Assembly: GCA_025617375.2 (NCBI GenBank)
Contig: JAMYGW020000005.1
Coordinates: 124,001 to 188,000 of the forward strand
Reading direction: 5' to 3'
DNA: 64,000 nucleotides
Source of the DNA: Acarospora socialis
Taxonomy: Eukaryota > Ascomycota > Lecanoromycetes > Acarosporales > Acarosporaceae
The stretch's first letter is position 1. Every line of letters starts with the position of its first letter. Made by a program: the position numbers and the translations under genes. The notes under the pieces are model-generated. The model saw only the letters and a list, made by a program, of their open reading frames with translations, made no database searches and was not told the origin of the DNA. Below, one piece after another: positions 10,669 to 58,698 of the stretch.

Positions 10669-10705
10669 TCATTTTTTTCTTCTCAGATGCTAGTTTTCTA
10701 AAGTC

Positions 10706-10713: not shown

Positions 10714-10747
10714 TAAGAGTATTCACATTGCTCTGCCATCAGCAATG

Positions 10748-11170
10748 ATGCTTTTTAAAAATTTCAATTGTCTAAGAATTGCAAAGAAAATTCAGCTTAG
10801 TGGTAGTCTCACTATGTTTTTCTGTGAATTCTGTACTGCCTGTGATCTTGATTGCTTTGTCATGACTGGTGAAAGATCAAAATGTAATAAGTATACTTGT
10901 CACAGTCATCTGTGCATTGCAGTTTCATGAAAGTCTCTCAACAGAACTTGTCTTTTTCTTCAAAAGAAAATAAGTGATGCAAATGTGATTCTTGGTGCTC
11001 TTGTCACCAAGATGATGCATCTTCAAAAAACTTTGAATCAGATGAATCATTGTGTCACACAGAAAACTGACTGTCTTGCTGCTGAACTTAATAGTGATAA
11101 TGATGAAACTGAGAATGAGAATTCTCAAACAATGTTGCAACTTGTTGACTTGATGTTGTCATTCTTCTGA
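10748..11170 (+). pseudogene. Zn2Cys6-like antisense gene of gypsy 1
   Basis: A single plus-strand frame of 140 codons with one internal TGA (10928). Its position after VS suggests a former Trp or Arg codon. The cysteines follow C-x2-C-x6-C (FFCEFCTACDLDC). The second half is KCNKYTCHSHLC, where Tyr replaces an expected Cys by a G to A change. A helical, Leu-rich stretch and an acidic block (NDETENENSQ) follow. The spacing is that of the fungal binuclear zinc cluster C-x2-C-x6-C...C-x2-C-x6-C. The gene runs opposite to pol and sits between the pol 3' end and the LTR, as in gypsy 2 and 3. Function is unknown; DNA or RNA binding is inference. Confidence 0.7.
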
Positions 11171-11199
11171 GCTAATATTGACTTCTTTTCTCAAAATGT

Positions 11200-14100
11200 T
11201 GAAGTGTTCTTGCACAGTTCTTGAGATTTTTTCTTGATTTTCAGGTATTTTCTGAGATGTCATAACCTTTTCACTTGATGAGATAGTGAACTTTCTCACT
11301 AATCATTTTCTTTTCTAGAATGTTCTCAACTTCATATTCTTTGTTGAGTTTGACAGACATTTTGATGATTTGAAGTGGTATGAACTGGTTGCAGTGCTGC
11401 AGCATGAATGCATGAAATACTGAGTGTATTCTCATTTTCTTGAGTAAGTCTAGCTCATAGCTCAACCCTTTAATGTTTCATATGATCTTGAATAATTCAA
11501 TGCTCTTGTTTTCTAGCTTCTTGCTTCTTCTCTTTGTTCATATGTTGTTCATTCTTAGATATATCTTTTCTTCTTCTTCAAATGATTTTGTCTCTGTTGT
11601 TTGTTCTGTCTGCTGTCTGATTTGCTTTGTCAGATCTTGATGCAGTTTTTTTATCTGTGTGATGTCTAAAATTGTTTTTTGACTCTGTGATCTGTGTTCT
11701 CTGAAATCTTGTCATATCTTTGAGTTGTAGTTATAGTTCACATAGAAAGACATTTCTCTCATGATTTCATTCTTTGTGTTGTTGTATACAAACTGTGCTG
11801 TTGACAACAGTTGTACTTAGTTATCTTGACTTTTGTTGACATAGTGTCTCAAGTACATTTCTATCATCTGATTCATTCATTCACTTTGTTCATCTGTCTG
11901 TGAATAATATGCTGTTAACATCTTATGCTTTATTCTGAGTTCTGCTGTGAGCATTTTTCAAAACTTGCTTGTGAACAGCTTATCTCTGTTGGTGATAAAT
12001 TCTTTTAATAGCTCATGATTGCTAATCAATTCTTGCAGTATGGTGTATGTCAATACTGATGCTGTTGTGATTTCTTTGAATGAAATAAACATTGTGTACT
12101 TGATTAATCTGTTTACTATGATTAATATGCTATTGAATTTTACTTTTCATGTTAAATTCTTTGATGATGATAGCTTCATAATGAAGTTCATGATAACTGA
12201 CTTTCATGGTGCATCTGGTGCATCTAGTTGTGTTACTTTGTCATATCACTTATTTTGATTGATCTTGTTTCTTCAGCATGAATCACACACAGCAATCATT
12301 CTGGTGATTCAGTTTCTAAAATTGTTAACATTGTGTCTTCTTTGCACTAGGTCTTCAGTGCATTTAACTTCTAGGTGTTTCTCAATTCTGTTGTAATGAC
12401 ACATTTTAATGAGTTCTTTGTCTGTTAAGAAAGTTTACTTCATCTTGTGTATTGCTGCTAAGTCTTTTGTGAGAACTTCTTTATCATCTTTGCTCAGAAT
12501 TTCAACATGTACTATCTGTATGTCTTTGTGATCAGATTATCTGCTCAGAGCATCTGCTTTATCATTTTCATTATTCTTTTTGTAATAAATCTGAAATTCA
12601 TAGTCTGCTAACTGCTCTGCTCAATGAATCTGTTGCTGATTGAGTTGCTTTGTCATTGTGAAGTTTTTCAGATTCTTGTAATTCATATAGATCTGAATTG
12701 ACTTGCTTATCTCTGTGAAATAAGATCTTCAATCTTGCAGTGCTTCTACTATTGCAAGAAGTTTCTTATCATGAATTTTATATCTTTTCTTGAGTTCTGA
12801 TAACTTTCTAAATTGATATGCTATGAGTCTCTGTTGCTTCTTTTCAATCTGGTATAGACATGCATCTACTGTGAAATTTAAAGCATTGATTTTCAGTGTT
12901 TTTTCACATGCTGAGTTGAGTATTCTCAGATGTGTCATTTCACTAAGACTTTTCTTTAATATGTGAAACACATTCTTCTGCTCTTTATCTCAATGTTATT
13001 TTTTGCTTTTGTGTGTCAAATGTGTTAGTGATTTCACAATTCTTGCATAGTTTGATACAAACTTTCAATTATAGTTTGTCAACTCTAGAAAGACCTGTAC
13101 TTCCTTGATTCTCTTTGGTGTTGATCAGTTTCTGACTGCTTTTGTTTTTTTTGAATTCTTCTTGATCTGTTCAGGTCAAATCACATAGTCTAGAAACTCA
13201 ACTTTCTTGATCTCAAACCTACTTTTCAATTTTTTCATGTACAGAGCTCTCTTGTTGAGTCTTGCTAGTATCTTGTGCACATACTCTCAGTACTTCTCAA
13301 GATCTTCTGAATATATCAGAATATCATTGAGATATGTGATCACAAAATTGTTGAGATATTCTCTCAACATATCATTAATTAATCTCTGAAAGATAACTGA
13401 AGCATTCTTCAGTTCAAATGGCATAATGATGTATTTATAGTGTTCATATCTTGTTTGAAACACTGTTTTTCATTCTTTGTCTTCTTTCATTCTGACTCAG
13501 TAGTAAGCTTCTTTGAGGTCTAAACTCATGAATCATTTAGTCTTTTCTAGTCAGTCTTGCAACTCTTTTATCAGTGATAAAAGATAACTATTTCAGTGAG
13601 TTATCTCATTGAGTTGTCTGTAGTCAACACACAGTCATTTCTTGTCATTTTTCTTTGATACAAACAGAATTGAGTATTCTGCTGATGACTTTGATGATTT
13701 TATGAATTCTCTCTTGAGATTCTCATCAAGATAAGTTCTAACTTTCTTGAGTTGATTTTTACTCATTGAGTATAGTGATATTCACTTAGGTTGCTTTCTG
13801 TTCAATAGTGATATCTTATGATCTCATGACTTATGCTCTAATAAGCTCATCTCTGATTGTTTTGAGATCTTGTATGTGTTTTTAACTGTGCATATTTCTT
13901 TCATAACTCAATTGATTCTAGAATTCTTTTCACACAATCAAGACATCTTTAGCATTGCATCATATTCAATTAATTTCATAACATCAAAGATTATCTCTTG
14001 TGAATTTTCAAGAATTGAGACTTTCACACAGGTTTTCTCATCAATTCTTTCAATGACTTCATTTGTCATTCATATGTTGAATGAACAGCACACTCACTGT

Positions 14101-16108
14101 GTCTTCAATTTCAACAATTCAACTATTCATCAACTCATGATATTATCATTCACTTCAAAATTCACCAATGTGTTGATCTGATGTTCATTGATCACAATTT
14201 TGATTTATATTTGATGATCATTGTCTTGTCTTTGAGACACCACTAGCTTCTTATTCTCTAGTCTTGTTGAGAAAGCTTTTCATTTTTTGACTCACTTGAT
14301 CATTCAGCTCATCTTCAAAGCTCTTAAAATCATCTAGGTTTTCTTCTGATCATAAGGTTTGCATACTTTAGGTTGTGCTGCTCAATGTATCTTTTCAAAT
14401 GTAGTTGAGATTCATACTAATTGTATTTCATCTGCAACTGACTCTCAAAGACTCTTACTCTTTGCAGAAATTCAAGTGGTATATATTCTTCACTGAAGAT
14501 TCACTTGTCTTCATTCTGCATGATATACTCTTCAGATAAGTGTATCTCAATCTTGTGACTCTTTGTTTTTTATACAAGAGATTTCAATATCAGTTCTTGC
14601 ATGATCATTCAGACATCTCTTATTAGTTCATCAAACTCTTCACATATCTTTACTTTCTGACTTTGAGTCTTTCACTCTTTCTTCTGCATTGTCTTGCAGT
14701 CTAGTGTCTTTTCTTTTTGAGCACTTAGATCTCTTTTAATCTTTGCTCAGTACTTTCTTGAAAGTTCTGTCTCAGCATTGTCTGAACTTTCTTTCACAAG
14801 TGTATTGTTGTTGAAAAATATTCAAGATTCATCAATCTGAAATTCATGATCATCAGTCTCTTTGATGTCATCTTCAAGAGTATTATCTTCTTTCTCAGCA
14901 TCAAGAACTCTTTTCTTGATAAGAATAGCTAATTCTTTCTTGTAATTGAATTGACTTGTTGTGTTGTATTCATTCTTTACATTCTTGTGCAGTTTCTGTG
15001 AGTACTATCTGACTCTATCTTTGCTGCTTATATATGCTCAGCACATGTCATCATAACAGACTGTTCAACTCAGAGCATCATGCACTATGCTTGGTTTCTT
15101 TGTCTTTGTTTTGATCATTATTGCTGCAACATTTTTTCTATTCATTCAAGACCTGTTGCATTCTCAAGCAAGGTGTTCAGGTTTTCTGCAGTTATAATAC
15201 ATTCATGTTTTGTTTTGTGATGTTGTCTGAGACTTAGTGAATCACTCTGTCTGACATTCAGACTCTGTTCATTTAGTTTTTTATGATTTCTGATGACACT
15301 TCTTGATTGCATTGAGATTCATAGAGTTTGTCTCTCTATATTTTATTGATAAAACATATCACTTCACTCACAGTCAGAAGCTTTCTTCTTGATCTTCTAT
15401 CATAGATGACATTCAATATTCTTTTTGTTTTATCTGTTGTTCTCACTGATGACTATCAATGTTGATATTCAGATCAATCATTTTCTGAAGATTGTTTGAT
15501 TGTTCTGCTTAAACTATCTTGTCTTTGATGAACTTTCTTAACTCACAATAGTACTGATAGATGAGTGCTTCATTATTTCATCTGATAAGTGCTGCTAACT
15601 GCTGAAACTCTGTGGTGTATACTGTTGTTGATTCACTCTGTTACAAGATGTAAACTTATTTCTCTGCTGTTCTTTCTTCATTGATCACTCTGAAAGCTTT
15701 TTTAAGTTTTTCTTTGAACTTGTTGAAGTTGTTGAACATAAACTTCATGTTGATGTTGCATTTGTTATAATTCTTCTCTAGAAATTCATGTAGCTTAAAG
15801 TCAACTCAGTCAAAGACTGCATTCACTAAATAGATTGTTACAAACAATGTTTTCTCCTGATCAGTTTGAAACTTTGATTGGTTGAATTCAATGTATAGAT
15901 TGAGCTTAATCACAAAGACTCACAGCTTTTCTCATTCTTCATCAAAGATATTGAGTACCTAAATCTTTGATGCATTCACAGATAGTTGTATCACCTGAGC
16001 TGACATCACTGATTGTGCTGTCATTCTATCTGAAGTAAATGATAAAGATAAGTTCATCTGAATCTGTCTCAAAAACAAGATTAAGACATTCTTCTGTGTG
16101 TCAGACAT
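11200..16108 (-). pseudogene. gypsy 1 gag-pol with C-terminal chromodomain
   Basis: Read on the minus strand from ATG 16108. Order: gag (about 16108-15000), zinc-knuckle region near 15200-15140, coiled segment, protease near 14150-13900, reverse transcriptase 13650-13050, RNase H 12970-12600 and integrase 12260-11750. A chromodomain lies at about 11340-11200 (YEVENILEKKMISEKVHYLI followed by a Lys-Trp-Lys-Gly-Tyr type block). The RT active site reads YLND where gypsy 3 has YLDD, a G to A loss of an Asp. Stops are mostly TGA at expected Trp/Arg positions. The order RT-RNase H-integrase-chromodomain identifies a chromovirus. Confidence 0.9.
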
Positions 16109-16139
16109 TGTACTTGTTATATTGTAAGAGTGTTCAAAG

Positions 16140-16500
16140 TGTAACATTCTAACCTGAGATTTCTCAGGTATGTAGAGCTAAGAATTTGTGCTTATTGATA
16201 TAATAACTGGTCTGAAACAGTTCTGAACTTTAACTCTTAAATAGTTACTTAAGTTGAACATGATTGTTTTCATAAGAAAAATGACTCTACTATATAGTGT
16301 GTGCTTAATAATTCTGCATTGAGCACTCTTGATGTCTCAACATCTCAATGTTGAGAAATTAAGTTCTCAGCTCACCTGCTCACTGTTGAGCTGTTATACT
16401 GTTACATGACTGTTGCTCAGCAGTCTCTTCTTTATGCACTACAGATGAATTTTTGATCACAGACTCATGAGTTTCTTTCTCTTCTGATATGGTCATAACA
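16140..16500 (-). repeat. Right LTR of gypsy 1
   Basis: 361 bp beginning TGTAACATTC and ending GGTCATAACA. It is the 5' LTR with respect to pol. It is followed directly by the target duplication TTATA. Confidence 0.95.
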
Positions 16501-16900
16501 TTATATTGTTGTGTTATAAAAGAGACACAAGTACAGTGATGACTATGTAATAGTTGAGAAAAAAAATTTGTTGAGAACTGAAGATTCAGAAAGAAAAGAT
16601 TAAAAGTTTTGTGAAAGAAAAAAAGTAAACTTGATTAAGCACTCATAGTACAGTTTGTTTACATGAATGTTGTTGTTTGTTGTGAGTAAATGTGTAGATA
16701 ACTTCAAAACAAACTATACAATTATTTAGAAATTTATCTAATAATTATTCTATCTCAGACAACTACATACTTGATTTTATGACACATTATGTACTGTTTG
16801 TAAAGTGTAATAAAAGAAATAAAGTTAGTATCAATTTTTTTTTTTAACATAGACATCACAACAGTAGTGAAACTGACATTCAAGTTATGTATTTAGCATT

Positions 16901-17700
16901 ATGACATCAAAACAAAAACTAAAGTCAAGAAAGAAAGTCAAGCTGACAACAGAGATGACTGAAGAAATGAAGAAAAAATCTTCAATGAAAATTGTCTTTG
17001 AAAAAAAAATGAAAATGTATAATGTAAAGATGACATCATAACTAGAGAGCAAAGAAGCTACAGTCAAACATAGCATCTTCTAAGAAGACAACTGAATTCT
17101 TAATAATTCTTCTCTATTCAAATCAATTGCTATAAGAAAAGAGTTTAGTGAGTTACATAGTTTTTGTAAGCATATTATATTATAATACTCAATTCTAACA
17201 CTCTCTGACAAACTTCTGCTATGTAGCAACAACAATGTTGATAAGAGCTGCATTTATTTAAGATTAATTAAACAGCATTCTTTCTTCTGATCAAAGAAAT
17301 AATCACTCAGTATAATTAGAATTTAAAGTGACATCAATCAGCAATCACAAGTCTGCAGAAGACAAGTGAAGTATATTTTTGTACTTATTTTGAAAGTATA
17401 AAATCTCACATATCAAAATCTCTCTTCTATGACTTATATGTTATATAGTTGTGAAGTTACATAAGAAAGAAAATCTGATTATGACAGTGAAATTGCAAAA
17501 GACAAAAACAGTGTTTGATATTTTTCAGCTTTACTAAGAAAATGAACTGTTTACTAGTTAATGTACTTTAGCTCTGTATTAAATATGTAATGTAATGAAC
17601 AGATTATAATATTCACATATAATGTTCATAAAATATGCTGCAAACACATAGTCAAATAAAACAAGCTTTGCAGAACTATCATTAAATAGTTTTGTGTTAA
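16901..17700 (+). pseudogene. Gene Y of the giant transposon, copy 1 (unknown)
   Basis: Plus-strand gene starting MTSKQKLKSRKKVKL, with a very basic N-terminus. Intron 1 (17166-17226, 61 nt, GTAAGC...TAG) and intron 2 (17587-17651, 65 nt, GTAATG...TAG) both contain two copies of the 13-bp module (ATAATACTC, TCTAACACTC; ATAATATTC, ATAATGTTC) in sense orientation. The frame runs through intron 1 at phase 1 into a stretch conserved with copy 2. I do not recognise a domain, and comparison by eye with H2A, H2B and H4 found no match. Trp/Arg-type TGA and Gln-type TAA stops interrupt it. Confidence 0.55.
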
Positions 17701-17757
17701 TAACTTTTATCAATCAAATTCTGCTTAGTTATCATGTGCTAATTGATTTTAATCTAG

Positions 17758-17896
17758 TTCAGACTGTCAAGAAAAATCTGACTTAACTTTGTTTGAAACT
17801 TAACTCTGTTCAGAGTTGAGCTGAGTTGCAAAGTTGAGCTTGGTGAATCAGACTGAATTCTAAAATCTGAGCTCAACTTAGCTCAGTGATCACTCT
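17758..17896. repeat. Right terminal region of giant transposon copy 1
   Basis: It resembles 33470-33608 and the right part of the MITE, ending CAGTGATCACTCT. It carries CTGAGCT/AGCTCAG subterminal repeats. The next 10 bases (ATTCACAGTC) would be the target duplication, but the left partner is outside the window. Confidence 0.75.
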
Positions 17897-18518
17897 ATTC
17901 ACAGTCATTCAGTCTTTATGTCTAGCAAGCATAATTAGCAATATATCATCTGAGACACTGCATTGAAACATGTTAAAATTATAAAGATTATAAATCTTAC
18001 TGCATCTGATCAGCAAAGAAAGCATATTATAAAATAACAGTCTGATAGCAATAACTCTGATAAAGTTCAAGATCTATATTTAAAGTATTGAAGTTCTAAG
18101 AGAGTTGATATTTGATATTATATAGAAGATTATACATCAAAAATCTTGAAAGACAATCACTTCAAGAATGACAGCAACAACAATGACAGCAACAACAACA
18201 ATCTTTTACTTTTTCAGAATATTCTCTCTGAAATAAAATTAAAGAAAGTTGTAAAGAATAACACTCTAAGTCTGAAGCAGTATATACTCACTCAACAGCT
18301 AATTGCTACAAGTGATCTAAGAGATGATTCTGCAATTAAAACTAATGCTAATACTAATACTTTCACTCTGAAACTCAGCAACAGTGAAGATGAGTATTTT
18401 GTCTTTTAAAATTTTCTTTCACAGTTCTTCTTAACTGATTAACTAACAATTTTTATTTAATCACTGCAGAAAACTCAATTGAGCTAAATTATAACAACTC
18501 AGACAACACTATGTTCAG
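17897..18518 (+). other. Unassigned segment with a short conserved-looking ORF
   Basis: This lies between the giant transposon and gypsy 2 and should join 40258 onward if gypsy 2 is removed. An 87-codon plus-strand ORF (18146-18409) has a short Asn/Asp/Ser repeat (NDSNNNDSNNN) and a Lys-rich stretch. I recognise no family. The ORF may be an exon of an older element or gene split by the gypsy 2 insertion. Confidence 0.35.
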
Positions 18519-20185: not shown

Positions 20186-20346
20186 TCATTAAGCTCATCA
20201 TCAAACATGTTAAGATATCACATGACTTCTGTCTTGACAGACAATCTGTTAAACATTTTTTTTACATATAAATCAGTTTGCATCTTATCTCTTCAAATAT
20301 GATCATAACATCATTCTTTCTTTTTTAGACACTAATTCTCTAGATC

Positions 20347-20354
20347 TATATAAG
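20347..20354 (+). promoter_or_regulatory. TATA-like box of the antisense gene in gypsy 2
   Basis: TATATAAG 34-41 bp before the ATG at 20388, the same position relative to the LTR end as in gypsy 1. Confidence 0.45.
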
Positions 20355-20387
20355 TGAGAGTATTTACACTGTTCATCATCAGCAACA

Positions 20388-20806
20388 ATGCTTTCTAAAA
20401 ATTTCAATCATCTAAAAATTACAAAGAAAATTCAGATCAGTGATGTATCTACTTTGTTTTTTTGTGATTATTGTGTCAGTTGTGACATCAATTGTTTTGT
20501 AATGAAATCTTGATCAAATATAATAAATATACTTGCTGTAATCATCTGTGTGTCAATATATTGTAAAAGTTTCTCAATAGAACTTATCTGTCACTTCAAA
20601 AGAAAATAAGTAAAGCAAACAGTGAATTAGCAGTCAAACATGTCAAACTTATTATATTGTCTTTGAAAGTTATGCATCTTCAGAAAATTCTGAATCAAAT
20701 GAATCATTATGTTTTGCAGAAAACTGACTGTCTTGTTGCTGAACTTGATAGTGATAATGATGAAATTGAGAATGAAGATTCTCAAACAATGTTATAACTT
20801 ATAAAT
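20388..20806 (+). pseudogene. Zn2Cys6-like antisense gene of gypsy 2
   Basis: Collinear with 10748-11170. The start MLSKNFNHLKITKKIQ and first cysteine group FFCDYCVSCDINC (C-x2-C-x6-C) are readable. The second cysteine group and the tail are broken by stops and an apparent frame change near 20510. The acidic tail region is still recognisable by DNA comparison near 20750-20790. It lies on the strand opposite to pol. Confidence 0.65.
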
Positions 20807-20849
20807 TTGATGTCTTCATTCTTCTGAACTAATATTGATTTTTTTTTCA

Positions 20850-21938
20850 AAATGTTAAAGTGTTTTCACATAGTTCTTAAGATTTTTCTTGAGTTCTCAG
20901 ATACTTTCTGAGATATTATATTCTCTTTATTTTATGAGATAGTAAACTTTCTCTTTAATCATTCTCTTTTTTAAAATGTTCTTAACTTTGTATTCTTTAT
21001 TGAATTTGACAGACACTTCAATAACTTAAAATGATATGAACTGATTACAGTGCTGTAGCATGAATGCATGAAATACTGAGTGTATTTTCATTTTCTTGAG
21101 TAAGTCTAACTTATAGCTTAATTTCTTAATATTTCATATAATCTTGAATGATTCAATGCTTTTATTTTTCAGCTTCTTGCTTCTTTCTTTAATTTTCATT
21201 TTGTCTGTTCTCAGATATATTTTTTCTTCTTTTTTGAATGATTTTGTCTTTATTGTTCATTCTGTCTGCTGTTCAATTCATTTTGTTAGATCTTGATGCA
21301 GTTTTTTTAATTGAGCAATGTTTAAAATCACTTTTTAACTTTGTGATTCATGTCTCTGTGAATCTTGTTATATCTTTGAGTTGTAGTTATAATTCATATA
21401 GAAAGACATTTTTCTTGTGATTTCATTCTTCATGTTGTTGTACACAAACTATATCATTAACAACAGCTGTACTCAGTTATTCTGATTCTTGTTGATATAG
21501 TGTTTTAAGTATGTTTTCACTGTTTAATTCATTCATTTGCTTTGTTCATCTATCTGTAAATGATATGTCATCAACATCTTATGTTTTATTTTAAGTTCTG
21601 CTGTGAGCATTTTTCAAAACTTGCTCATAAACAGTTTGTCTCTGTTGATAATAAAATCTTTTGATATTTTATAATTGTTAATCAATTCTTACAGTATAAT
21701 GTACATCAATACTGATGCTGTTGCAGTCTCTTTGAATGAAATGAACATTGTGTACTTGATTAATCTGTTCACTATAATCAATATATTATTGAATTTCATT
21801 TTTCATGCTGAGTCTTTTGATAATAATAATTTCATAATGAAATTTATAATAACTGACTTTCACAGCACATTTGATGCATTCAGTCATGTTACTTCATCAT
21901 ATTGCTTGTCTTAATTAATCTTATTTCTTCAACATGAG
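20850..21938 (-). pseudogene. gypsy 2 pol, 3' part (integrase and chromodomain)
   Basis: Minus-strand sequence collinear with 11200-12290 of gypsy 1. It covers the chromodomain side near 20900-21000 and integrase up to the insertion of the next LTR element at 21939. It is broken by many stops. The reading resumes at 36275 on the far side of the 14.3-kb insertion. Confidence 0.8.
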
Positions 21939-22124
21939 TGTTATGAATTTATAGAGCTCAGCAAAATTGAAACTCTATAATAAGATGAGACTCTACAGAA
22001 GTACTCAGCATTAGTTTTTAAGAAGTCTGCATCTGAGTAAAACATTACTTTCTAGATAGTTTTCTCAATCAATCAACACTTTATCATAGACTTAGAAATC
22101 AATCATATAAATTAATTCTAACAA
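21939..22124 (+). repeat. Left LTR of the gag-protease element
   Basis: 186 bp, matching 36085-36269 with differences that are mostly transitions. It is followed by AATGATAGCATCAACTG, a probable primer-binding region. Confidence 0.85.
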
Positions 22125-22257
22125 ATGATAGCATCAACTGATTAAAGCATTCAGTTTAAATCTTCATATCTAGATGTCAGTGAGCTCAAAAATGCTGCAT
22201 TAAAATTGTTCTCTGTGATAGTCTATGAAATGCACACAAAATTAAACAAAAAATGAG

Positions 22258-22267
22258 ATATTTGCTT
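22258..22267. repeat. Left target duplication of giant transposon copy 2
   Basis: ATATTTGCTT. Its partner at 33609-33618 is ACATTTGCTT, one C/T difference. The last 8 bases are identical. Confidence 0.8.
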
Positions 22268-22412
22268 AAAGTAATCATCAGACTGAGTTAACCCTGACTG
22301 ATCTGAACTGAGCTTTTGAGTCAGGTTGAACTGAGTCAAGTTTTTGAGCTTGAAGATTCAAGTTGAGTTTGATTTGAAAGTCTGATCTGACTCAGACATT
22401 TAGTCTGAATTT
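22268..22412. repeat. Left terminal region of giant transposon copy 2
   Basis: Starts AAAGTAATCATCAGACTGAG and is rich in CTGAGT/GACTCAG subterminal repeats. It resembles the left end of the MITE at 9097. Confidence 0.75.
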
Positions 22413-22599
22413 TAATGATTATGATTATGATTAATAAGTGAACTTATGAACTAGAGTTCAAGAATTTAGGTTGAAAGAGTGTGATACATGAGTGTTATAA
22501 GTAAGCATTATATTGTGAACAAAGATATTGCTTTCATTCTAAGATTACTATCTATCACATCAAGAAGACAGTATTTCTGAAGTAACTCTAATCACTTTT

Positions 22600-23842
22600 A
22601 CTTCAATCTACATCTTTTGATGCAATATTTCAGTTATGCATATATCTCTTAATGAGAATCATGTTCTTTTGCTGAATAATAATCTGCTTTGTGTGAATTG
22701 CAGTAAGATTAACATTTGAACAAGTTAGTTTATAGTTTCTTAACAGTGTGTTCAACATACTTTCAAAAAAGACAACAACATATACTTCTGCAGCTTCTTG
22801 CAGACTTTTTATGACTGAGATTTGAAATTAAAAGTTCTTGTTGTAATGTCAAATCTTTATTGAATAGTTCTGAGTGATTTCTTGACACAGTTGCTGAAAG
22901 AAAAGTTTTTTCATTAAGAAATTGATTGATCTCTGATAGCAACATATTTCATGAAGAGTGACAGCTATAGAGTAGAATTGAGTGTTAGAATTGAGTGTTA
23001 AAATTGAGCATTGAAATTGAGAGTTAGAATTGAGCAATAAAATTGAGCAATATCATGAGCATCATCACTAAGCACTAAAACAAAGCATCAAGATAAAGCA
23101 CTGAAACTGAGCATCAAAACTGAGCAATAAAATTGAGTGATAAAATTAATTGATATCATGAGCACCAAAACAAAGCACAAAACTGAGCTTCAAAATTGAG
23201 CATCAAAATATAGCATCAAAACTGAGCACCAAAACTGAGCACCAAAATATAGCATCAAAACTGAGCACTGAAACTGAGCATCAAAATTGAGCATCAAAAT
23301 TGAGCATTAAATCTAAGCACTGAAACTGAGCATTAAAATAAAGCATCATCACAAAGTACTGAAACAAAGCATCAAAACTGAGCATCAAAACTGAGCAATA
23401 AAATGAAGCACTGAAACTGAGCATCAAGATTGAGCACTGAAATGAAGTATCAAAATAAAGCATCAAAATGAAGCACTAAAACAAAGCATCAAAACTGAGC
23501 ATCAAAATTGAGCAATAAAATTGAGCAATAAAATTGAGCAATAAAATTGAACTTACTGTTTGACTTTCAGCAGTGAGCTGATCTAACTTTTGCAGTAACT
23601 GTCTAACTTTCTTCATCTTCATCTGTATTTGTAGCAGTATTTGTTTCAATCTTTACTCATATCTCAGCAGTATTCTCTTTCATGTTTTCTTCACTCTTTT
23701 CTTTTTTCTTTTCTTCATCATGAGTTTTTTCACTCTCACACATCTTTTCAGCAGTCAATGTCTTTTCTTTGCTCAGTACTGTCTTCATAGCATCACATTT
23801 TGTTGAAGATTTCTTGCTACATGTCATGATGTGAAATAACAA
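22600..23842 (-). pseudogene. Histone H3-fold gene carried by the giant transposon
   Basis: Minus strand, three exons. Exon 1 (23842-23557; second Met at 23827) gives a charged tail of about 95 residues starting MTCSKKSS. Intron 1 (23556-22965, 592 nt, GTAAGT...CTATAG) is a 13-bp repeat array. Exon 2 (22964-22761) gives in order TVTLHEICCYQRS, KLFFQQLCQEIT, then FQISVIKSLQEAAEVYVVVFF. This follows histone H3 from TVALREIRRYQ through alpha-1 into alpha-2. Intron 2 is 22760-22716 (CTAAC branch site; 3' AG now AA). Exon 3 gives NLTAIHTK and a block matching KDIQLARR. Loop 1 is several residues longer than in canonical H3, as in CenH3 variants. Arg to Cys/His changes and stops show it is dead. 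Family assignment is strong; a CenH3-like identity is only a possibility. Confidence 0.85.
22965..23556 (-). repeat. 13-bp minisatellite forming intron 1 of the H3-like gene
   Basis: About 44 tandem units of a 13-mer (plus strand TGAGCATCAAAAC and variants; sense TTTTGATGCTCAG) occupy almost the whole interval. On the sense strand it opens with GTAAGTTC and closes with TTCTAACAC...CTATAG. The CTAAC is a good fungal branch-point match. Exon 1 ends in phase 1 and exon 2 resumes in frame (codon ACT) directly in the conserved H3 block. Units run in perfect 13-bp register over long stretches, for example 23280-23550. Confidence 0.85.
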
Positions 23843-24114
23843 TTTGATGAAGTTCTAAGATCAAGTTAATAGAAGTATTATAAGAGATCAATATAAAGAT
23901 AAAGATATCTTTGAGTGACTGTGAATTATAATGTATGTGAAAAACTGAGTTGATGAGAAAGTTGTAGTTTGAAGTTCATTGTTGAGAGATGTTATTAAGA
24001 TGTTAGAGAGACTGAGATGTTATGCTAGTAAATATCACATTCACTTATGATATGTGCATCAATGTTATTATGCTAGTAAACATCATATTCACTCATGATA
24101 TGTACATCAATATT
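23843..24114. promoter_or_regulatory. Divergent intergenic region of the H3-like and X1 genes
   Basis: 272 bp separate the two divergent start codons (23842 and 24115). It contains AT-rich sequence and a duplicated phrase at about 24026-24054 and 24071-24099 (ATGCTAGTAAA, ATTCACTYATGATATGT). A shared bidirectional promoter is inferred from position only. Confidence 0.4.
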
Positions 24115-26091
24115 ATGAGTAAATATATCAATACATCTATCTCTAACACTCAGTTCTTATCTTCACTTTCACTGCTCAGTCTCTATGTTCAATCTCTATG
24201 CTCAGTATCTACATTCAGTAAGTTTATTATTTCACTTTGATGCTTCATTTCATTGCTTCATTTTGATACTTTATTTCAGTGCTTCATTCTGATGCTTAGT
24301 TTCAGTGCTTTGTTTCAGTACTTAATCTATTGCTCATTTTTATCACTCAGTTTTGATGTTTCATCTCAATACTCTGTTTTGATGTTGTGTTTTAGTGCTT
24401 GATTTTGATGCTTTGTTCTGATTCTTAGTTTTGATGCTTTGTTTCAGCACTCAATATATTGCTCATTTTTATTACTTTGTTTTGATGTTTTGTTTTGTTG
24501 CTCAGTTTTAATGCTCAGTTTTGATGCTTTGTTTCAGTGCTTTGTGATAATGCTTTGTTTTGATGCTCAGTTTCAGTGCTTTATGATGATGCTCAAATTC
24601 AGTACTTTGTTTTATTGCTCAATTTTGATACTCAATTTTAATACTTTGCTCTGATGTTTTGTTCTGATGCTTTGTCTTGATGCTTTGTCTTGATGCTTTG
24701 TTTCAATGCTCAATTTTGATGCTTTGTTTTGATGTTTTATTCTGATGCTTTGTCTTGATGCTTTGTCTTGATACTTTATTTTGATGCTTCATTTTAATGC
24801 TCAATTTTAATGCTTCATTTTGATGTTTCATGATGATGTTCAGTTTTGATGCTTGATTTTGTTGCTCATTCTATCACTCAATAATAATACTCATTTATAG
24901 TTCTCAAAGTTAACTTTACATTCTAGACTCTTACAATGACAAAATTCTCAAACACTAAGCTTTCACTTCTCTCTGTCAAACAACTTGTCTTTATTTTGTC
25001 AACAAACTTAAAAATATTTCAAATGTTGACTCTGATTATTGTGATCATTCTTACAAGTCATTATATGATTTAAAGAAGACATTTAATGAGTACTTAAACA
25101 ACTTAAAGACTGTATAAGTACAGAAGAAATATCAGAAATTTATGAAGAATGAAGATTTCAGATAAATTAAACATACAAAGATGACAGATTACAGAGCTGT
25201 GAAATGAAAGAGAGACATCATGAAAAAATTGAAAAAATATAAAACTGTGAATTCTGCTGTACAGAAAATCATGAAAGAGAAAATGAAGAAAGAAGTCTTA
25301 AAGAAGTAATACAATTGTGAAATATCTGATAGATTTCAAGAATTATAATGCTCTATTATAATACTTTTAACTATCTGCAGCTGTCTACTATGAAGATAAG
25401 TTTAAAGCTTGTTTGATGAAGCAGAAGAATCAAGCTTGAATTGATGAGAAAATTGAGAAGAAAAGATTATTTACTGATACTTTAACTCTGAAAGAGAAGC
25501 ATGAGTCTAAGAAATTACAGTAAGAGATATACTCTATATTGAAGTTTTATAGTTTCTCTGACTTTCTCTAAAATATTGACAAAGATGTCATTATCAATGA
25601 GAAGTACAGCAATATCAATCAGCAGATTGACAAGTATCTTGTTGTTGTGATGAAACATCAAAAGAAAATCATTAATTTTACAGAAAAGCAGAAGCTACAT
25701 GATGCTGAAGACTCTGATTCTGCAAAGACAATGTGTCTTTTCTATAATGATGTTCTTGATTCTGAGCATATTGTTGATTATGATTATTCATGAGTATTAT
25801 ATCACTCAGTTATAACACTTTGTACTTTTAACAATGACTAAATACATTTAAAAGTTCATAGTTGATCAAGAAGAAAAGAAGAAAAAAAGTGTTGTTGAGA
25901 ATACTGATAAAGCTTATGTGATAAAGTCTGAAGATGAGAAGTTCTTGAATGATGATTTAATTAATGAGTTTATTATTGATGCAGCAATTACTGATGTGAA
26001 AAATGATGAGAAGAAGAAAGATAAAGCTGAAAATGATGAAGATGATGAAAGTATCACAGATAAGAACAGTGATAAGAAGAAAAGTAAGTAG
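24115..26091 (+). pseudogene. Gene X1 of the giant transposon (unknown family)
   Basis: Exon 1 (24115-24217) gives a short Ser/Leu-rich start (MSKYINTSISNTQ). Intron 1 (24218-24926, 709 nt, GTAAGT...TTCTAG) is a 13-mer array, and exon 2 resumes in phase. Exon 2 is Lys-rich and helical (KIMKEKMKKEVLKK). A further intron is likely near 25336-25380. The next exon contains VVVMKHQKKIINFTEKQK, then CLFYNDVLDSEHIVDYDYS, and ends at an intron (25794-25854, 61 nt, GTATTA...AAAAG, in phase). The last exon is acidic/basic (NDEKKKDKAENDEDDES) and stops at TAG 26089-26091. It shares the HQ..I..F...SEHI.D pattern and the following intron position with X2, so the two are probably paralogues. Function is unknown. 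Confidence 0.65.
24218..24926 (+). repeat. 13-bp minisatellite forming intron 1 of gene X1
   Basis: From about 24225 to 24890, roughly 50 units of TTTTGATGCTYWG run in the sense direction, so this array is inverted with respect to the one at 22965-23556. It opens GTAAGTTTATT and closes with TTAAC...ACATTCTAG. Exon 1 leaves one base, and joining at 24927 restores the X1 frame. The two arrays could pair into a very long hairpin around the shared promoter. Confidence 0.85.
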
Positions 26092-26750
26092 TAAAGTAAT
26101 ACACAGTTTTGTGATGACTAAAGCTGTAAAATAGTAAGAGAATAATCAGAGATATCTGACAAATTATTTATTTTTATATTCTTGATGATCAATTATCTGA
26201 TTATGAATATGAATTATTAATAATAAGTTACTTCTCTTTAAAATATTGTGTCTGATATTATCACATGACATAGTATGAAGTTGTAGTATAGAATTTTACA
26301 TTAAATTATTTATTTCAATAATTAAATATTGTTAACTCAATAACATGTTATGCAGAGTAGCTTTCTCATTGATTAAATATATATAAATCATATAAGTTCT
26401 GTCTTTTACTTGTGTAAATTTTATGATCACATAACTACATTCATATAAAGAAAAACTTACTAAGTTTCACAACACTCTTCATATCTTACTATTGTTATAC
26501 TACAACAAAGCATCATCTACTCAATCAGCTTACTCTGAGAAATCATTATCATGTCTTTATACAGTTTTTTCTTCAGTCAGCTGACAAGTAACTCAGAAAA
26601 TTCTTTTATGAGTGTTTTCACTGATAGAGTTTGATCATCTCAATGAGTACTATCATTCTCTTTGACTTTAACAAATGCACTCAACTCAGAGTATGTTCTT
26701 TGAATCTTTGTGATGAAGCAAGAATTTTAAGAGTGATGAGAGACAATTAT
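26092..26750. other. Spacer between X1 and the hAT gene
   Basis: AT-rich sequence without recognisable coding similarity. It probably holds the X1 terminator and the hAT promoter. A 71-codon ORF at 26631-26846 overlaps the start of the hAT coding frame in another frame and is not supported. Confidence 0.4.
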
Positions 26751-26759
26751 ATGAAGTTA

Positions 26760-29220
26760 AAACACAGTTGTGAAAGTCAAAAAACATACTTCAATACTGT
26801 AAAACAGTTCAAGTTGTTCAGCAGAAGTCTGAAAGTCTTTTGCTGAAGTAGTCAATAAATGTGATGAAAGATTTAATGTGATGTGTGTTAAGTGTCACAA
26901 TATTATGAATCATTCAGCATTAAATAATGATGAAACAACAATCATAAGATGTTATCTGAAGAGCAACAGTTGTCAGAATGCAAGAAAATCATTAGAAAGA
27001 CAGATTTCAATCTTTACAGCACTGAATATTACTGTATATTATGTTTTTCAATTATAATGCTTTAATATAATACTCACATCTGTGCAGACAGTTCAAAAAA
27101 TCATTATCAAATCACTTAACTTTACTTTTGAAGTCTTTGATCAACAGATTCTTTAGTTCATCATAGCACTCAATCTGTTTTTTTGTGCTGTTGAGCATCT
27201 AAAGTTTTGAAAGTTCATCTGAATATGTTGTGCTGAAATTAAGATTTCAGATTGAACAAAAGTTGCATAACTTCTTAAACATCATGCTGTGAAAGTTCAA
27301 AAAAAAATTCTTACAGTATTTGAGCTGCAGACTAGAGTCTCTATTGTATTTGATGAATGAATCAGTTTTAATCATCTTACATTTTTAAACATCACTGCAT
27401 ACTTTATCAACACTGAGTGAAAGTACAGAGAGATTCTTTTAGCATTCAGAGAATTAAAGAATCAATATAGTGATGAAAATTTAACTGAGTATGGTCTTAA
27501 GATGTTGAAGAAGTGAAATCTGACACATTAATTGTTAGTGATCACAGCAGACAATGCTTTCAACAATTATACTTTAAGATGTCATCTCAATCAACTTTTA
27601 AGTGCAAAAAATATAATCTGAAGTGATGAAACTAAAATCATGAATTGCATAACACATATTATTCAGTTTGCAGTCAATCAGCTACTCACATATTTAAAAG
27701 CTGATGTCAAAAATAATCATTCTACAACTATATTTGATGACAGTAAGCTATAAAAGTTTATATTTGAAAAGAACTACTTTTTTAATATCATACTGAAAAA
27801 GATCAGTAAATCTTTTGTAATGCTTCATTATAATGCTCTATTTCAGTTCATTGTTATGTTAACAACATATTGATGAAGATTTATATGCTTGTTATTACAA
27901 TCATGACATCATCACAGCAACTTAAGCTGTTCAAAGAATTGCAGAAGACAAATTCTTGAAGTATGATTGAGAATATGAAAACTTAATGAAACTCATTCTA
28001 TGATATGCTGAACAGAGCATATAAACTATGAACTGAATTCTCTCAGTAAATAAAGTGTCTAACTAGAACAATAAACAGAATGAAGTTTCTCAAATATAAT
28101 ACAAGAGAGTGACAGCATGTCAAATACATACTGCATCTTCTAAAACACTTTAAGAACTGAACAGAGATCATGAGAGTTATCAGTGAGTCAATAATTCACA
28201 AGCTGTAATTCACATATAACAATCTGTTTAATTATCTTGAAAATCAGAACAAAGTAATTGAGAAGTTTGAATTATTCTTCAATTCTAAGTTGCTGAATGC
28301 TATTGATACATGTAAAAAAAAACTGACTCAATATTATAAAAAGACAGAAGTCAATCATGAATTGTTCTGTAATCTTGAGACAATATTGAATTTATGCAAC
28401 AAGTTTGACATGTACAATGTAGACATTCTTCAATCTTCAATTCAAACAATATATTAAGACTGACATGATTTAATACAGAAAGATGACTAAGAAAATTTAT
28501 GTGTAATCTACAAACTTAAGTTTCAAAAATACTACAGCATCAACTACCAGCATCTGAAAAATGAGTCATCAGATTAAGATTTGATCATATTTGATCTTAA
28601 AGAGAAGAAGACAATAACTATAATGAGTTACATAAAGAACATAAAAAAGCATTAAGATATATCTGTGAAGAAAGAACTTGCAGATTATTTGTAAAAGTCT
28701 TCAGTATTTGATGTGAATATTTCAATTCTTGAGTACTAAAAGTTGATGAAGAAGTCAAAATCAGTAATGACTCAATTTGTAAAGAATATACTTGCAATTT
28801 CTGCAGCAGATGTTGATGTTGAATATTTATTCAATATGACTCAAGATGTTATCACATATCATTAAAATTGATTAAATTCAGAAATCATCAAGAAAATCAT
28901 GCTGATCAAATATCATAATATGTTCACATTTATAACAGAATTAATAAAAGATCTTGAGAAGAGATCTGCATTGACAATAATTGTTAACAATGATGAAGAA
29001 AAATCTTCAGCAGATAAACTAAATTGAAAAGTAACTGAATTTTGTACAGAGCTTCTATTGAATCAACTCTTCATTGATGATGATTTTTATGATGACAGTG
29101 ATCAAGAGAACAACAACAACTTTAAACTTTTCAACAGCAATCAAGATAAAAACATTGATTCTAGACTTTACAACAGTGATTAAGATTAAAATCTGAACAC
29201 TGAAGCAATACATTTAAGCA
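26760..29220 (+). pseudogene. hAT transposase, copy 2, with BED-type zinc finger
   Basis: The N-terminal exon holds a BED-like finger: MCVKCHNIMNHSAL, then IIRCYLKSNSC (C-x2-C with a His to Tyr change before the last Cys), at about 26881-26981. It is followed by an intron (27034-27087, 54 nt, GTATAT...GTGCAG, phase 0) that contains two 13-mer modules. The next exon shows the hAT core landmarks RVSIVFDEWISFNHL followed by NITAYFI (near 27330), TADNAFNN (27547) and CITHIIQFAVNQL. The C-terminal dimerisation block is near 28800-28920. An acidic tail follows. In copy 1 the copia element sits in the same intron. Stops are of the Trp/Arg to TGA and Gln to TAA/TAG types. Confidence 0.9.
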
Positions 29221-29689
29221 TTATAAATATTTTAAATCATGCAACATCAAGACACACAATCTTCAACAACAACTATAGTCATAAATCAATAAACATCAGT
29301 TCAGAAGAAAAGCACAGAGCTTTTTCACTGAATATGTTATCTGCAGCAATTGATGTTTTAATTATTAGTTTTATCTTCAATGACTTTACTATTATCAGTC
29401 TCATTGTTCAAAACATCAGCTTCAACAACTCTGTTTAGAGCATCTTTACTGTTATTACATATACAGTTTTAAATATAACATTACATCAGTCAAGAGACAG
29501 AAATCTTCTTCATAAATGAAGCAAACAACTGTTAAAGACATCACTCTCACAAATAAAAATACAGACACTGCACTTTAAGATCATCACTGCTTCAATATTA
29601 AGATTATATGAGACTTTTAATCTTTCATATATCAGTCACATCAATGATTTTTCAAAATCAAGAAAAATACATTCATTTTTATCTGAAGA

Positions 29690-30143
29690 TAATGTTGATG
29701 TTTATAGATGTAAGCAATATTGATCTCAGTAAACTTTTGTCTCACATTTTTTTAAAACATAGAGTAACATCACAAACAGAGAGTCTTGTTGTTGAGCACA
29801 TCATGAAATTGTTATGAATTTGAGACAGAATACATGCACAATATTTTTATAAATTCACAGTGATCTCATTCTTATATTTACTATCTTAATAATTTTGTCT
29901 CTTTATCACAATCTGATCACAACTCTCATTGTTGCTGCATTCTTTAGATTAGTTCATGACTTCATACTTTTCATGCTCAATAGACTAAGTCATACACATA
30001 TATGTAGATATACTTTCATACTCTGCAATTCTGAGAAGTTCATTGTTGTTGAGTTATTTATAATAAACAACAATTACATTCTGAATCAACAGTATTGTAC
30101 ATACAAAAAGAAAAAATACACTTATAAAAGTGACTTTGAGTAG
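29690..30143 (+). pseudogene. Gene Z of the giant transposon, copy 2 (unknown)
   Basis: The last 82 codons (29895-30143) are open: AAFFRLVHDFILFMLNRLSH, then a Tyr/Lys-rich end KKKKYTYKSDFE. The same frame can be followed upstream through stops to about 29690 (DNVDVYRCKQ). It is conserved with 7040-7497, with many synonymous-type differences. No family is recognised. It could be the last exon of the hAT gene. Confidence 0.45.
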
Positions 30144-30221
30144 AGTATCAGACTTAAACTTGCTTACACATTAACAACAATGATATTAAAGATCTTTGAT
30201 CTTCACTCAGAACATTGTAGT

Positions 30222-32114
30222 TCAGTTTAGTTTTACATCTTCATTATTCTCATCATTATTATCATCATCATGATCTTTCTTCTTCTTCTTCTCATCATTC
30301 TGTACATTTTCTTTCATTTCTGAGACTTTTATCTTTTCATCAGTATCATCTGTAACAAACAGAGTCTGTTCTGTTGATGATTGAATTTTAAATTCTGTCT
30401 TAGTCTACAGATATATTGAATTAACAAGAACTTTATAGATGATTGTAAAAGCATTATAATTGAGCAATATAAACATATTTGATCATTGTGTACATCAATC
30501 TTCTGACTCTTTGACTTCAAAGATGCAGTCTGTGAAAAATATTATTTAGTGAGAGTTCTGATACTAAAACAGCACAAAATTAATATATTTTGTTCTCTTC
30601 TAAGATTGTCTTCTTAATGTTTGTTAATGCAACTTTGCTGAACTTAAAAAAGATATGTTCATCATCAGTATTTTCATTTGACACAATTCACTCAGAAATA
30701 ACTACTGTAGCTATATTTTCATTTTCACTCAACACTACTTTCACTTCTGCATTTTCATCTACAGATGCATTGAAAATCATCAGTAACTGATATCTAGAAA
30801 CAAAACAGCATCAGTTGCTGTCTTGAGAAGTGTTATAAATGAGTGTTAAAAATAAAATACATACTGATGAGCTTCATTATCTGCTATGTGTTCTGAATTA
30901 AGTACAATATTATTGAAAACTTGCATAACAAAATCTGAGTTCTCATCTTCTGCAGCAGTAAACTCTTCATAGTTGCAGAACTGAATGATTTGCTCTTGAT
31001 GCTTAACTACTGTACATAAAGATTCTGTTCAGCAGTCTTGAATATTTTAATGAATTTTTGTAATTTAATCACATCAGCACAGTCTAGAATTCAAATAAAT
31101 AAGACATACTTTTTTATTAAAGACTGCAGAAGAACTCTTTGTTTCAAGAAGCTCATGTAAAGTTTGAGTTTCTTTAGCTTGTATAATGAAATTATTGTAC
31201 TTGACAATATCATTTTTCTTCTTCTGCTGAGCTATTGCATTCTGATTTATGAGAAAAATTGTTACATATTAAATTAAAAACTGTGTAAAACTAAAACAGT
31301 AGATTAATACTCATCATGTTCACTCTCTGCATATCTTTGAGTCACAATTTTCTCTTTAATCTTAACTGCATACTTTGTCTTTTGAATAGCATCTTTGAAC
31401 TTTTTATAGTCTGAATCATGCTTGAGATTCTGATTCACTTTATTCAGTGCTTTGTTGTCTTTGTTGTGAGTTTCTTCAATTTCATCATCTCTGAAGACAT
31501 TAACTACTGAAAATTGTGATAGTGTGATTCTCTGAGTTGTATTAAATAGTGAAGAATTTAATTTAAAAAGAAATGAAAAGCTTCTCAATTCATGAATACA
31601 ATCTAGTTTCTGATTTAGTACACTCTTTGTGCATTATAATTGAGTGTTATAATCATAGAAGTTATTTACAAGATTTCACAGTAAAAAAACTGCTGAGTAC
31701 ATCTGAAGTATTTTTGAGAAGTACAGCATTGAATGTTGATTCAGAATAATTGATAAATACTTTTATTTTTTCTTATCAATCAGCAAAGTTTTCTTTCTTC
31801 AGACATGCAGCAATGTCTGAGATAAGTATATTGATTTTGTTGATCTGTTTCTTCTTTTTCTTCTTGTTAAGTTAAGATGATATGAATATATCAGTTTTGT
31901 CAATCTGTTTCTTCTTCTTCTTCTTGACAGATTGAGATGATAAGTTTAATATATTGATAAAGTGAGTTCTCTTATGAATAGATGTGTTTAACATTGTGTT
32001 AAATGAGTTTAATGCTTGCAATTTTGCTACATTTACAGAAATAATCTTAACATTCTTTCTGCACTGTTCTGATAATGTATTTTTAAAATGAAAGTCAGCA
32101 TCTTATTTCTTCAT
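30222..32114 (-). pseudogene. Gene X2 of the giant transposon, copy 2 (unknown family)
   Basis: Minus strand, ATG 32114 (start MKK, then a Gln-type stop), stop 30224-30222. Candidate introns: 31669-31610 (60 nt), 31310-31242 (69 nt), 30860-30794 (67 nt) and 30474-30415 (60 nt), all GT...AG. Three of the four carry the 13-mer module in sense orientation. The 94-codon block 31588-31304 is acidic/basic (FRDDEIEETHNKDNKAL). The next exon carries TVVKHQEQIIQFCNYEEF and NNIVLNSEHIADNEAH just before an intron, as in X1. The C-terminus is highly acidic (KKKKDHDDDNNDENNED). Highly charged tails occur in histone chaperones and many other nuclear proteins. A link to the H3-like gene is speculation. Confidence 0.65.
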
Positions 32115-32612
32115 AATTAATTTCACTTACATGACAACTAATTGAGCTCTTTAAAATATATTTAAGCAATATCTGATGACTTTCTTCAATCTCTTGATCT
32201 GATAATATTATATTGTTGCATTATAAAAGAAACACAAGTATGTTGATGACTGTATGATAGTTTGAAAAAAAAATTTATAAAAAACTGAAGATTCAGAAAG
32301 AAAAGATCAGAGATTTTGTGAAAGTGAAAAAGTAAACTTGACTAAGCACTCATAGTACAGTTTGTTTATGTGAATGTTGTTGTTTGTTGTGAGTGAATCT
32401 GTAGATAACTTCAAAACAAACTACACAATTATTCAGAAATTTTATCTCATGATCATTCTATCTCAGACAACTACAAATATACTTGATTTTAAGACACATT
32501 ACATACTATTTGTAAAATGTAGTAGAAGAAATCACATTAGTATCAATTACATTTTCTAATATAGACATTATAAGAGTAGAGAAACTGACATTCAAGTTAT
32601 GTATTTAGCATC
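32115..32612. other. Divergent spacer between X2 and Y
   Basis: 498 bp between the divergent X2 and Y starts in copy 2. In copy 1 the gypsy 1 element lies here (target TTATA). It holds AT-rich sequence and a purine run near 32290-32310. No gene is recognised; it is probably a shared promoter. Confidence 0.4.
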
Positions 32613-33440
32613 ATGACATCAAAACAAAAACTAAAGTCAAGAAAGAAAGTTAAGCTGACAACAGAGATGACTGAAGAAATTAAGAAGAAATCTTCAATGA
32701 AAACTGTTTTTGAAAAAAAAATGAAGATATATAATGCAGAAATAACATCATAACTAGAGAGCAAAGAAGCTGCAGTTAAATGTAGCATCTTTTAAGAAGA
32801 TGACTGAATTCTTAATAATTCTTCTTCATTTAAATCAATTGCTACAAGAAAAGAGTCTAGTGAGTTACATAATTTTTACAATCATATTATATTATAATGC
32901 TCAATTCTAACACTCTCTGACAAGATTTTGCTATGTAGCAGCAACAATATTGACAAGAACTGCATTTTTTCAAGATTAATCAAGCAGCATTCTCTCTTCT
33001 AATCAGAGAAATAATCACTTAGTATAATTAGAACTTAAAGTAACATTAATCAGCAATCACAAGTCTACAGAAGACAAGTGAAGCATTTCTTCATACTTAT
33101 TTTGAAAGTATAAATTCTCACATATCAAAATCTCTCTTCTATAACTTATATGTTATATAATTGCAAAGCTACATAAGAAAAAGAATCTAGTTACAGCAGC
33201 AGAGTTGTGAAAGACAAAGATGATGTTTGATACTTTTCAGCTCTACTAAGAAAATGAAATTCTTATTAATTAATGTACTTTAGCTTTGTATTAAATATGT
33301 GATGTAATGAACAGCTTATAATGCTCATATATAATGTTCACAAAGCATGCTGCAAACACATAGTCAAACAAAAAGTGCTTTGTGAAACTATCATCAAATA
33401 GTTTTGCATTAGTAACATCTATCAATCAAACTCTGCTTAG
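32613..33440 (+). pseudogene. Gene Y of the giant transposon, copy 2 (unknown)
   Basis: Starts MTSKQKLKSRKKVKL like copy 1. The 13-mer-containing introns are recognisable near 32878-32940 (ATAATGCTC, TCTAACACTC; the 5' GT is now AC) and 33300-33365. Coding conservation with copy 1 continues between them (for example ISNHKS.EDK). Function is unknown. Confidence 0.55.
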
Positions 33441-33469
33441 TTATTATGTGCTAACTAATTTTAATTTAA

Positions 33470-33608
33470 TTTGAACTGTCAAGAAAAATCTGACTTAACT
33501 CTGTCTGAAACTCAACTCTGTTCAGAGTCAGATCAGGTTGCAAAGTTGAGTCTGATGAACTGAGTCAAGTTTTAAAATCTGAGTTCAACTTAACTCAGTG
33601 ATCACTCT
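33470..33608. repeat. Right terminal region of giant transposon copy 2
   Basis: Matches 17758-17896 and the right part of the MITE. It ends CAGTGATCACTCT immediately before the duplication ACATTTGCTT (33609-33618). Confidence 0.8.
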
Positions 33609-33618
33609 ACATTTGCTT

Positions 33619-40092: not shown

Positions 40093-40123
40093 TGTACTTT
40101 TTATATTGTAAGAGTGTTTAAAG

Positions 40124-58693: not shown

Positions 58694-58698
58694 ACACA

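Follow-up and report, generated by a model that had tools for sequence, protein, structure and literature searches.

The window analysed here, by which we mean the whole stretch of 64,000 bases, contains a transposable element designated element B, which carries one histone H3-like gene (H3-B) towards its left end, a transposase in its middle and another H3-like gene (H3-F) towards its right end. The features of the locus are as follows.

22259-22266: left target-site duplication TATTTGCT; the right copy differs by one transition
22267-33609: hAT element B, 11,343 bp
22267-22282, plus strand: left terminal inverted repeat of element B; the same kind of end is found in the C9 copy and in family A
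22630-22715, minus strand: H3-B exon 3, loop 2 and the end of the fold
22716-22760, minus strand: H3-B intron 2, 45 bp, with a GTATG donor and a CTAAC branch-like motif before the acceptor
22761-22964, minus strand: H3-B exon 2, alpha-N to alpha-2
22965-23556, minus strand: H3-B intron 1, 592 bp, filled by 13-bp tandem repeats at 22976-23550
23557-23827, minus strand: H3-B exon 1, the lysine- and glutamate-rich tail, with three in-frame stops in the window copy
25572-26088, plus strand: fragments of gene X, a charged protein with an acidic end and weak relatives in family A
26686-29021, plus strand: hAT transposase region, with protein similarity to family A
28674-28910, plus strand: hAT C-terminal dimerisation domain PF05699 (31.1 bits, E 5.1e-6 for the genome)
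30804-31064, minus strand: gene X', an inverted relative of X (sharing 36% of 87 residues with X in the C3 copy, E 2e-5)
32613-33187, plus strand: H3-F, the second H3-like gene of element B, directed towards the right end; its fold exon is 32927-33106 and its last exon is tentative
33594-33609, minus strand: right terminal inverted repeat of element B, an inverted match to the left end
33610-33617: right target-site duplication CATTTGCT, 8 bp, one transition from TATTTGCT

The gene at 22630-23827 on the minus strand is an H3-fold gene of three exons inside a hAT element, and it is now broken by stops, three in the tail and two in the fold. The peptides that the first-pass annotation had named as lying in the order of histone H3 are present on the minus strand in that order, and the profile search that it had proposed gave a clear match. 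A six-frame scan of the genome with the Pfam histone domain PF00125 returned 22 rows, in which H3-B scored 26.7 bits at a curated cut-off of 26.4 bits. When the 45-bp intron was read through, the fold scored 28.2 bits, and when it was spliced out, the score was 45.3 bits (E 1.3e-11). Because the score rises on splicing, the gene model is supported. PF00125 was absent from the six-frame Pfam scan of the whole element, which returned the hAT domain only, and the histone was found when the exons were given by themselves. The best 60 solved relatives listed were H3-type histones. The exon coordinates were worked out from offsets in the copy comparisons, and the exon ends of the transposon H3 genes were located with search strings set by the analyst.

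The first exon of H3-B has 271 nt, that is, 90 codons and one split codon, so the earlier figure of about 95 residues for the tail was about right. H3-B lacks the conserved ARTKQTARKS-type H3 tail; in it, this part is a 90-codon sequence rich in lysine and glutamate. Loop 1, rightly described before as lengthened, exceeds that of H3 by 7 residues and retains the H3-type F. The fold of the C3 copy is 43% identical to that of the host H3 and 39% identical to that of the host CenH3; the histone fold is what H3-B has in common with these host proteins, whereas its tail, loop 1 and introns are different. Of the five B copies in which intron 2 was compared, four retain the acceptor AG; the window copy has lost it. 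Two arrays of 13-bp tandem repeats, inverted to each other, lie at 22976-23550 inside intron 1 and at 24231-24866 between H3-B and gene X, which agrees with the earlier remark that the histone gene shares an intron module with the element.

The position of the gene within hAT ends and a target duplication was also borne out. The inverted ends of element B are of the TAGAGTGATCAC type, and its similarity to other copies starts sharply at 22267. In the sequence L018 (at about 8021-8030), the flanks on either side of the element (21939-22267 and 33609-35069) are joined to each other, which is how an unoccupied site should look. Element B is 88.5% identical to the C9 copy over its full length and 89.6% identical to the C3 copy over 9.35 kb. 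Target-site duplications were searched in seven copies of both families, and six of them had 8 bp equal up to one transition, with exact identity in three; for the C3 copy, the right end could not be placed in this search. PF05699 was also found at six other places in the genome, and the transposase is broken in the copies read. By its 8-bp target-site duplication, short terminal inverted repeats and PF05699, element B belongs to the hAT superfamily.

H3-F was recognised with a profile built without it, by which it scored 34.0 bits (E 1.7e-9) in the window and 30.7-34.0 bits in all three B copies, whereas the highest score among 100 random sequences with matched dinucleotide composition was 9.1 bits. 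With PF00125, it stayed below the cut-off (20.4 bits in the window and 23.6 in the C3 copy), whereas the genes designated A, B, C, D and E were above it. Genes X and X' have a KHQ..II motif and acidic ends in common. An inverted X pair flanks the transposase in both families, that of family A being read from weak matches (E 1e-5 to 4e-4).

Other repeats were observed around the element. Element B is present once more, interrupted by nested insertions, in 1-17897 of the window and in L027; the start of this copy is placed by extrapolation at about C5:118.4 kb, and it ends at 17897 of the window. Another repeat family occupies 10308-16500, 20283-21937, 36278-40171 and 52624-58696, with 77-90% identity among these places, and is present at several other loci.

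A census by DNA probes, the counts of which are lower bounds, gave at least 15 full-length transposase segments in family B and at least 8 in family A. A left H3 gene (H3-B or H3-A), counted when it was on the opposite strand, upstream of the transposase and within 25 kb, was found beside 14 of the 15 in B and 8 of the 8 in A, together 22 of 23, always on the same side and strand. Eleven of the 14 H3-B genes were 4.7-6.1 kb away; the other three, at 10.2, 17.4 and 23.5 kb, are taken to be separated by nested insertions, and nesting was seen directly for C5 and, in part, for C1. The one B copy without H3-B (C2:2206379) is truncated and begins only at element position 2204. H3-F followed downstream, on the same strand and within 15 kb, in 13 of the 15 B transposase copies, and was missing from the C8 copy, in which similarity ends at about 7190, and from C2:1004918. 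In family A, H3-A accompanied all eight transposase copies (one at 10.6 kb), and H3-D and H3-E accompanied seven of eight each (one at 11.3 kb and one at 19.8 kb, respectively), C12 being the copy without both. Five of 19 H3-B rows and three of 12 H3-A rows had no full-length transposase partner, and some of these lay near transposase fragments.

These counts decide against the view that elements had inserted into an ordinary H3 gene of the host or next to it. Nothing beyond the histone fold itself speaks for such a gene, whereas 22 of the 23 full-length transposase copies have the gene on one and the same side and strand, and the host H3 and CenH3 lie elsewhere in the genome, in DNA of 52-56% GC with normal CpG. 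We give this explanation practically no probability, and an ordinary host gene beside a transposon is ruled out by the census. The first-pass annotation had taken the gene for cargo of the element rather than a passing host gene, and this holds. It had also reasoned that elements consistently lacking the gene would point to a chance insertion; such elements were looked for among the copies of this genome, and this is not what is seen.

Family A, 12.07 kb long, is a second, diverged hAT family whose ends and duplications are like those of family B, and seven of the PF00125 hits in the genome belong to it. Between the two families, the transposases are 34-57% identical in the protein segments compared and the left H3 genes 40-45%, about the same divergence. 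In the four A copies compared, H3-A lies at the left end (minus strand), H3-D at about 9.0 kb (plus strand) and H3-E at about 11.4 kb (plus strand). Family A thus has three H3-like genes and family B two, and in both families H3 genes face outward at both ends with the transposase in the centre. The end of the left H3 fold is 366-367 bases from the left element end in B and 358-359 in A, the value for A_C2 reading 367 before its start is corrected by 8. A single-copy H3-like gene, H3-C, was also found in CpG-free DNA on C13 (L018 4525-4838). In the 20.5 kb around it, neither a transposase match at E 1e-3 nor two ends that fit together turned up. No element could be defined there, and H3-C may or may not belong to a third hAT family.

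Since the tail and loop 1 of H3-B had been said to recall CenH3 variants, the kinship of the genes was considered. By purine/pyrimidine distance, H3-B is nearer to the host H3 (0.10) than to the host CenH3 (0.19), as are H3-D (0.16 vs 0.20) and H3-E (0.13 vs 0.19), and the same is true of all six transposon H3-like genes. A protein tree joined the 11 transposon rows (bootstrap 99, SH-aLRT 98) with warnings of long branches and of letter make-up. When codon positions 1 and 2 were recoded as purine/pyrimidine, the transposon clade was not recovered and most branches were weak; a single origin was therefore not taken from the protein tree alone. The proposed phylogeny of H3 and CenH3 thus gave a divided answer: H3-B stood outside the CenH3 rows in the recoded tree, whereas H3-D and H3-E fell among them in this weak tree (SH-aLRT/bootstrap 97.8/64 and 94.3/56).

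CenH3 proteins have a longer loop 1 with a W. From the REI-type motif to LQ, this loop has 26 residues in H3-D, H3-E and the host CenH3 and 22 in H3; it is of H3 length in A, C and F and longer still in B. The codon of the loop-1 aromatic residue is a stop in every copy compared of A, D, E and F; in B and C the residue is the H3-type F. It could be argued that the cargo is a CenH3 variant that steers the element to centromeres or disturbs them. The loop length of D and E fits this, as do their places in the recoded tree, the FSR that H3-D has like the host CenH3, and the loop-1 stops, which the codon of an H3-type F could not yield by C:G to T:A changes alone. However, all six genes are nearer to the host H3, B and C have the H3-type F, and the loop of A, C and F is of H3 length. 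We consider a CenH3 cargo improbable. For the gene of the window, which is nearer to the host H3, keeps the H3-type F and stands outside the CenH3 rows, CenH3 identity was set aside as a main reading, and as judged from these letters, the label is not justified; H3-D and H3-E may or may not be CenH3 variants.

The host histones also bear on the setting of the locus, which had been thought to be Eurotiomycete. The 104-residue fold of the host CenH3 is 94% identical to that of Acarospora, and its 17 best matches (88-94%) bear names of lichen-forming fungi, which we take to be Lecanoromycetes, so the Eurotiomycete setting is not upheld. No identical protein was among the best 120 matches listed. 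The H3 query of the protein collection gave 36 proteins at E 1e-5 among 911 candidates; two H3.2-like proteins of Mycena olivaceomarginata in which loop 1 is enlarged (P0001 and P0003) ranked among the best H3 matches. The transposase query gave none at E 1e-10 among 5350 candidates, which is perhaps due to RIP damage.

The transposon genes have an interruption in common. In all six H3-like genes, the fold breaks after the same F/L-E or K codon and resumes near an NL motif; the gap measures 36-65 bases, except in a single copy that has an insertion, where it is 422. A GT stands at the break in every copy compared of A, B, C and F (4, 3, 1 and 3 copies) and in none of the four copies each of D and E. 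An AG stands at the far side in 4/4 copies of A, 2/3 of B, 3/4 of D and 4/4 of E and not in C, the last exon of F being uncertain. These losses of GT and AG could be explained by RIP, and in C, D and E the common intron is read from its position alone or from one splice side. Neither the host H3 nor the host CenH3, both of which were checked in this genome, has an intron at that site of the fold. The host H3 has an intron one codon from intron 1 of H3-B, which may or may not be the same intron.

No intact transposon H3 was found among the copies compared, all of which have at least one stop in the fold (B 5/5; A 7/7, two of these rows being exon 2 only; D 4/4; E 4/4; F 3/3; C 1/1). Within families, the H3 exons compared differed, when all copy pairs were added up, by 616 transitions and 3 transversions; the corresponding figures for a single pair of whole family A elements were 1342 and 31. 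The decay within families is of RIP type, C:G to T:A. The whole window of 64,000 bases is without CpG, CpC is at 0.07 of expectation, and CpA and CpT remain. Between two copies of element A, the surviving differences were 543 at CpA and 522 at CpT. The pattern of the window is unlike that of RIP as usually described, which prefers CpA.

Because RIP makes transitions only, the six genes were compared with each other in purine/pyrimidine classes (15 pairs). The differences were highest, or tied for highest, at codon position 3 in all 15 pairs, and the excess reached an uncorrected p<0.05 in six of them. The best pair was A-B, with 14, 17 and 33 differences by codon position in 86 codons (p=0.002), followed by C-D (p=0.006) and D-E (p=0.009). 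The pairs are not independent, and nine of the 15 were not significant, including all five with H3-F, for which there was no sign of selection. The results suggest that purifying selection probably kept the H3 protein while the families diverged, before RIP destroyed it.

The same data can be read as repeated accidental transduplication, in which a host H3 was picked up several times, was of no use to the element, was amplified with it and was then mutated by RIP. For Pseudocercospora, the published interpretation, in the passages seen of PMC6710886, is that a host transcript was captured, and the reading as transduplication also agrees with the nearness of all six genes to the host H3, with the recoded tree, which has no single transposon clade, and with the nine pairs that were not significant. 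Independent captures, however, leave it unexplained that the same site is interrupted in six of six genes and in neither the host H3 nor the host CenH3, that the left H3 is placed alike in both families (fold ends 358-367 bp from the left end), that H3 genes stand at both ends in both, and that the third-position lean is found in 15 of 15 pairs. On balance, we regard repeated capture as unlikely, with appreciably more in its favour than a CenH3 cargo.

We therefore favour, as the probable history, that the H3 variants have long belonged to the gene set of a large fungal hAT lineage. An ancestral hAT element would have taken up an H3 gene, and the lineage would then have borne outward-facing H3 genes at both ends around a central transposase; an inverted pair of gene X may have belonged to this ancestral layout, for which the evidence is weaker. 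At least two families would have arisen from it, with three H3-like genes in A and two in B; selection would have kept the H3 proteins during the divergence of the families, and the copies would later have been inactivated by RIP-type C:G to T:A mutation. In this history, we infer the single origin, the selection and any function of the proteins.

What the proteins did for the element is a matter of speculation. In the part of PMC12543289 consulted, one RIP pathway of Neurospora is described as dependent on the H3K9 methyltransferase DIM-5. We tentatively suggest, while giving it less than an even chance, that the tail-remodelled H3 variants of an active element entered nucleosomes on element or excised DNA and weakened H3K9-dependent silencing. 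A variant made by the element, with its remodelled tail, would replace the host H3 on element DNA and so lead to less K9 methylation, and the acid-tailed X might assist it. Alternatively, the variants may have packaged a transposition intermediate or may have had no function. If the H3 variants are core transposon genes, the nucleosome itself may be a level at which transposons act on silencing, and a single cause could underlie the "captured" H3 genes reported from fungal hATs. When the histones of a fungal genome are counted by Pfam domain, genes of transposons can be among them.

Elements of this kind have been described before, and the earlier statement that no such case was known has to be withdrawn, since the literature contains two cases from Dothideomycetes and probably a third (PMC6710886, PMC3538342, PMC3017866). 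These three were recognised from titles, the starts of abstracts and passages, and among the papers that the literature search listed there was no lichen case of an H3-carrying hAT. In the passages seen, Dhillon et al. 2019 (PMC6710886) reported hAT elements with one or two H3-like copies in six Mycosphaerellaceae, including Pseudocercospora fijiensis, the copies being all inactivated by RIP with the exception of the original gene; the case was read as capture of an intronless host transcript, and other domains were not found. Manning et al. 2013 (PMC3538342), as far as the text was available, described a 5.6-kb hAT with an H3-like gene (H3L) in Pyrenophora tritici-repentis, which is represented by ESTs and fits neither H3 nor CenH3. 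Repeat R25 of Parastagonospora nodorum was reclassified by Hane and Oliver 2010 as derived from an endogenous gene region, in the excerpt of PMC3017866. It is possible, but rather doubtful, that all of these belong to one old hAT lineage reaching from lichen-forming fungi to Dothideomycetes, with a chromatin kit as core genes, namely outward-facing H3 variants at both ends and the acid-tailed X pair as possible chaperones. Such a lineage would supply nucleosome components of its own and thereby evade RIP and H3K9-dependent silencing, and what was published as "accidental captures" would belong to it. New in the present case are the placing of H3 genes at either end in two families that have diverged, the introns absent from the host H3, the selection signal and the further fungal group.

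The Acarospora elements have in common with the Dothideomycete H3-hATs, likened by their published description, an H3-like gene between hAT ends that is amplified with the element. They are similar to the Pseudocercospora hATs, for which the passages of PMC6710886 give an 8-bp target-site duplication, a length of about 9.5 kb, one or two H3-like copies, confinement to AT-rich blocks and inactivation by RIP. They differ from these in having two families, two or three H3-like genes, introns absent from the host H3 and a gene X pair, and in the complete loss of CpG, in contrast to the CpA-biased RIP stated there. A 16-residue insertion separates the two Pseudocercospora H3 copies in the same account (PMC6710886), which is close to the 15 residues of the in-frame 45-bp intron of H3-B, the two being compared by length only. 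The P. tritici-repentis element, in the portion of PMC3538342 consulted, is unlike those of Acarospora in its 5.6 kb, its single H3L per element, its near-identical copies and its ESTs. In the excerpt of PMC3017866, R25 is likewise a RIP-degraded repeat, similar to histone H3 and weakly to DNA transposons, and differs in that an element structure is not described there.
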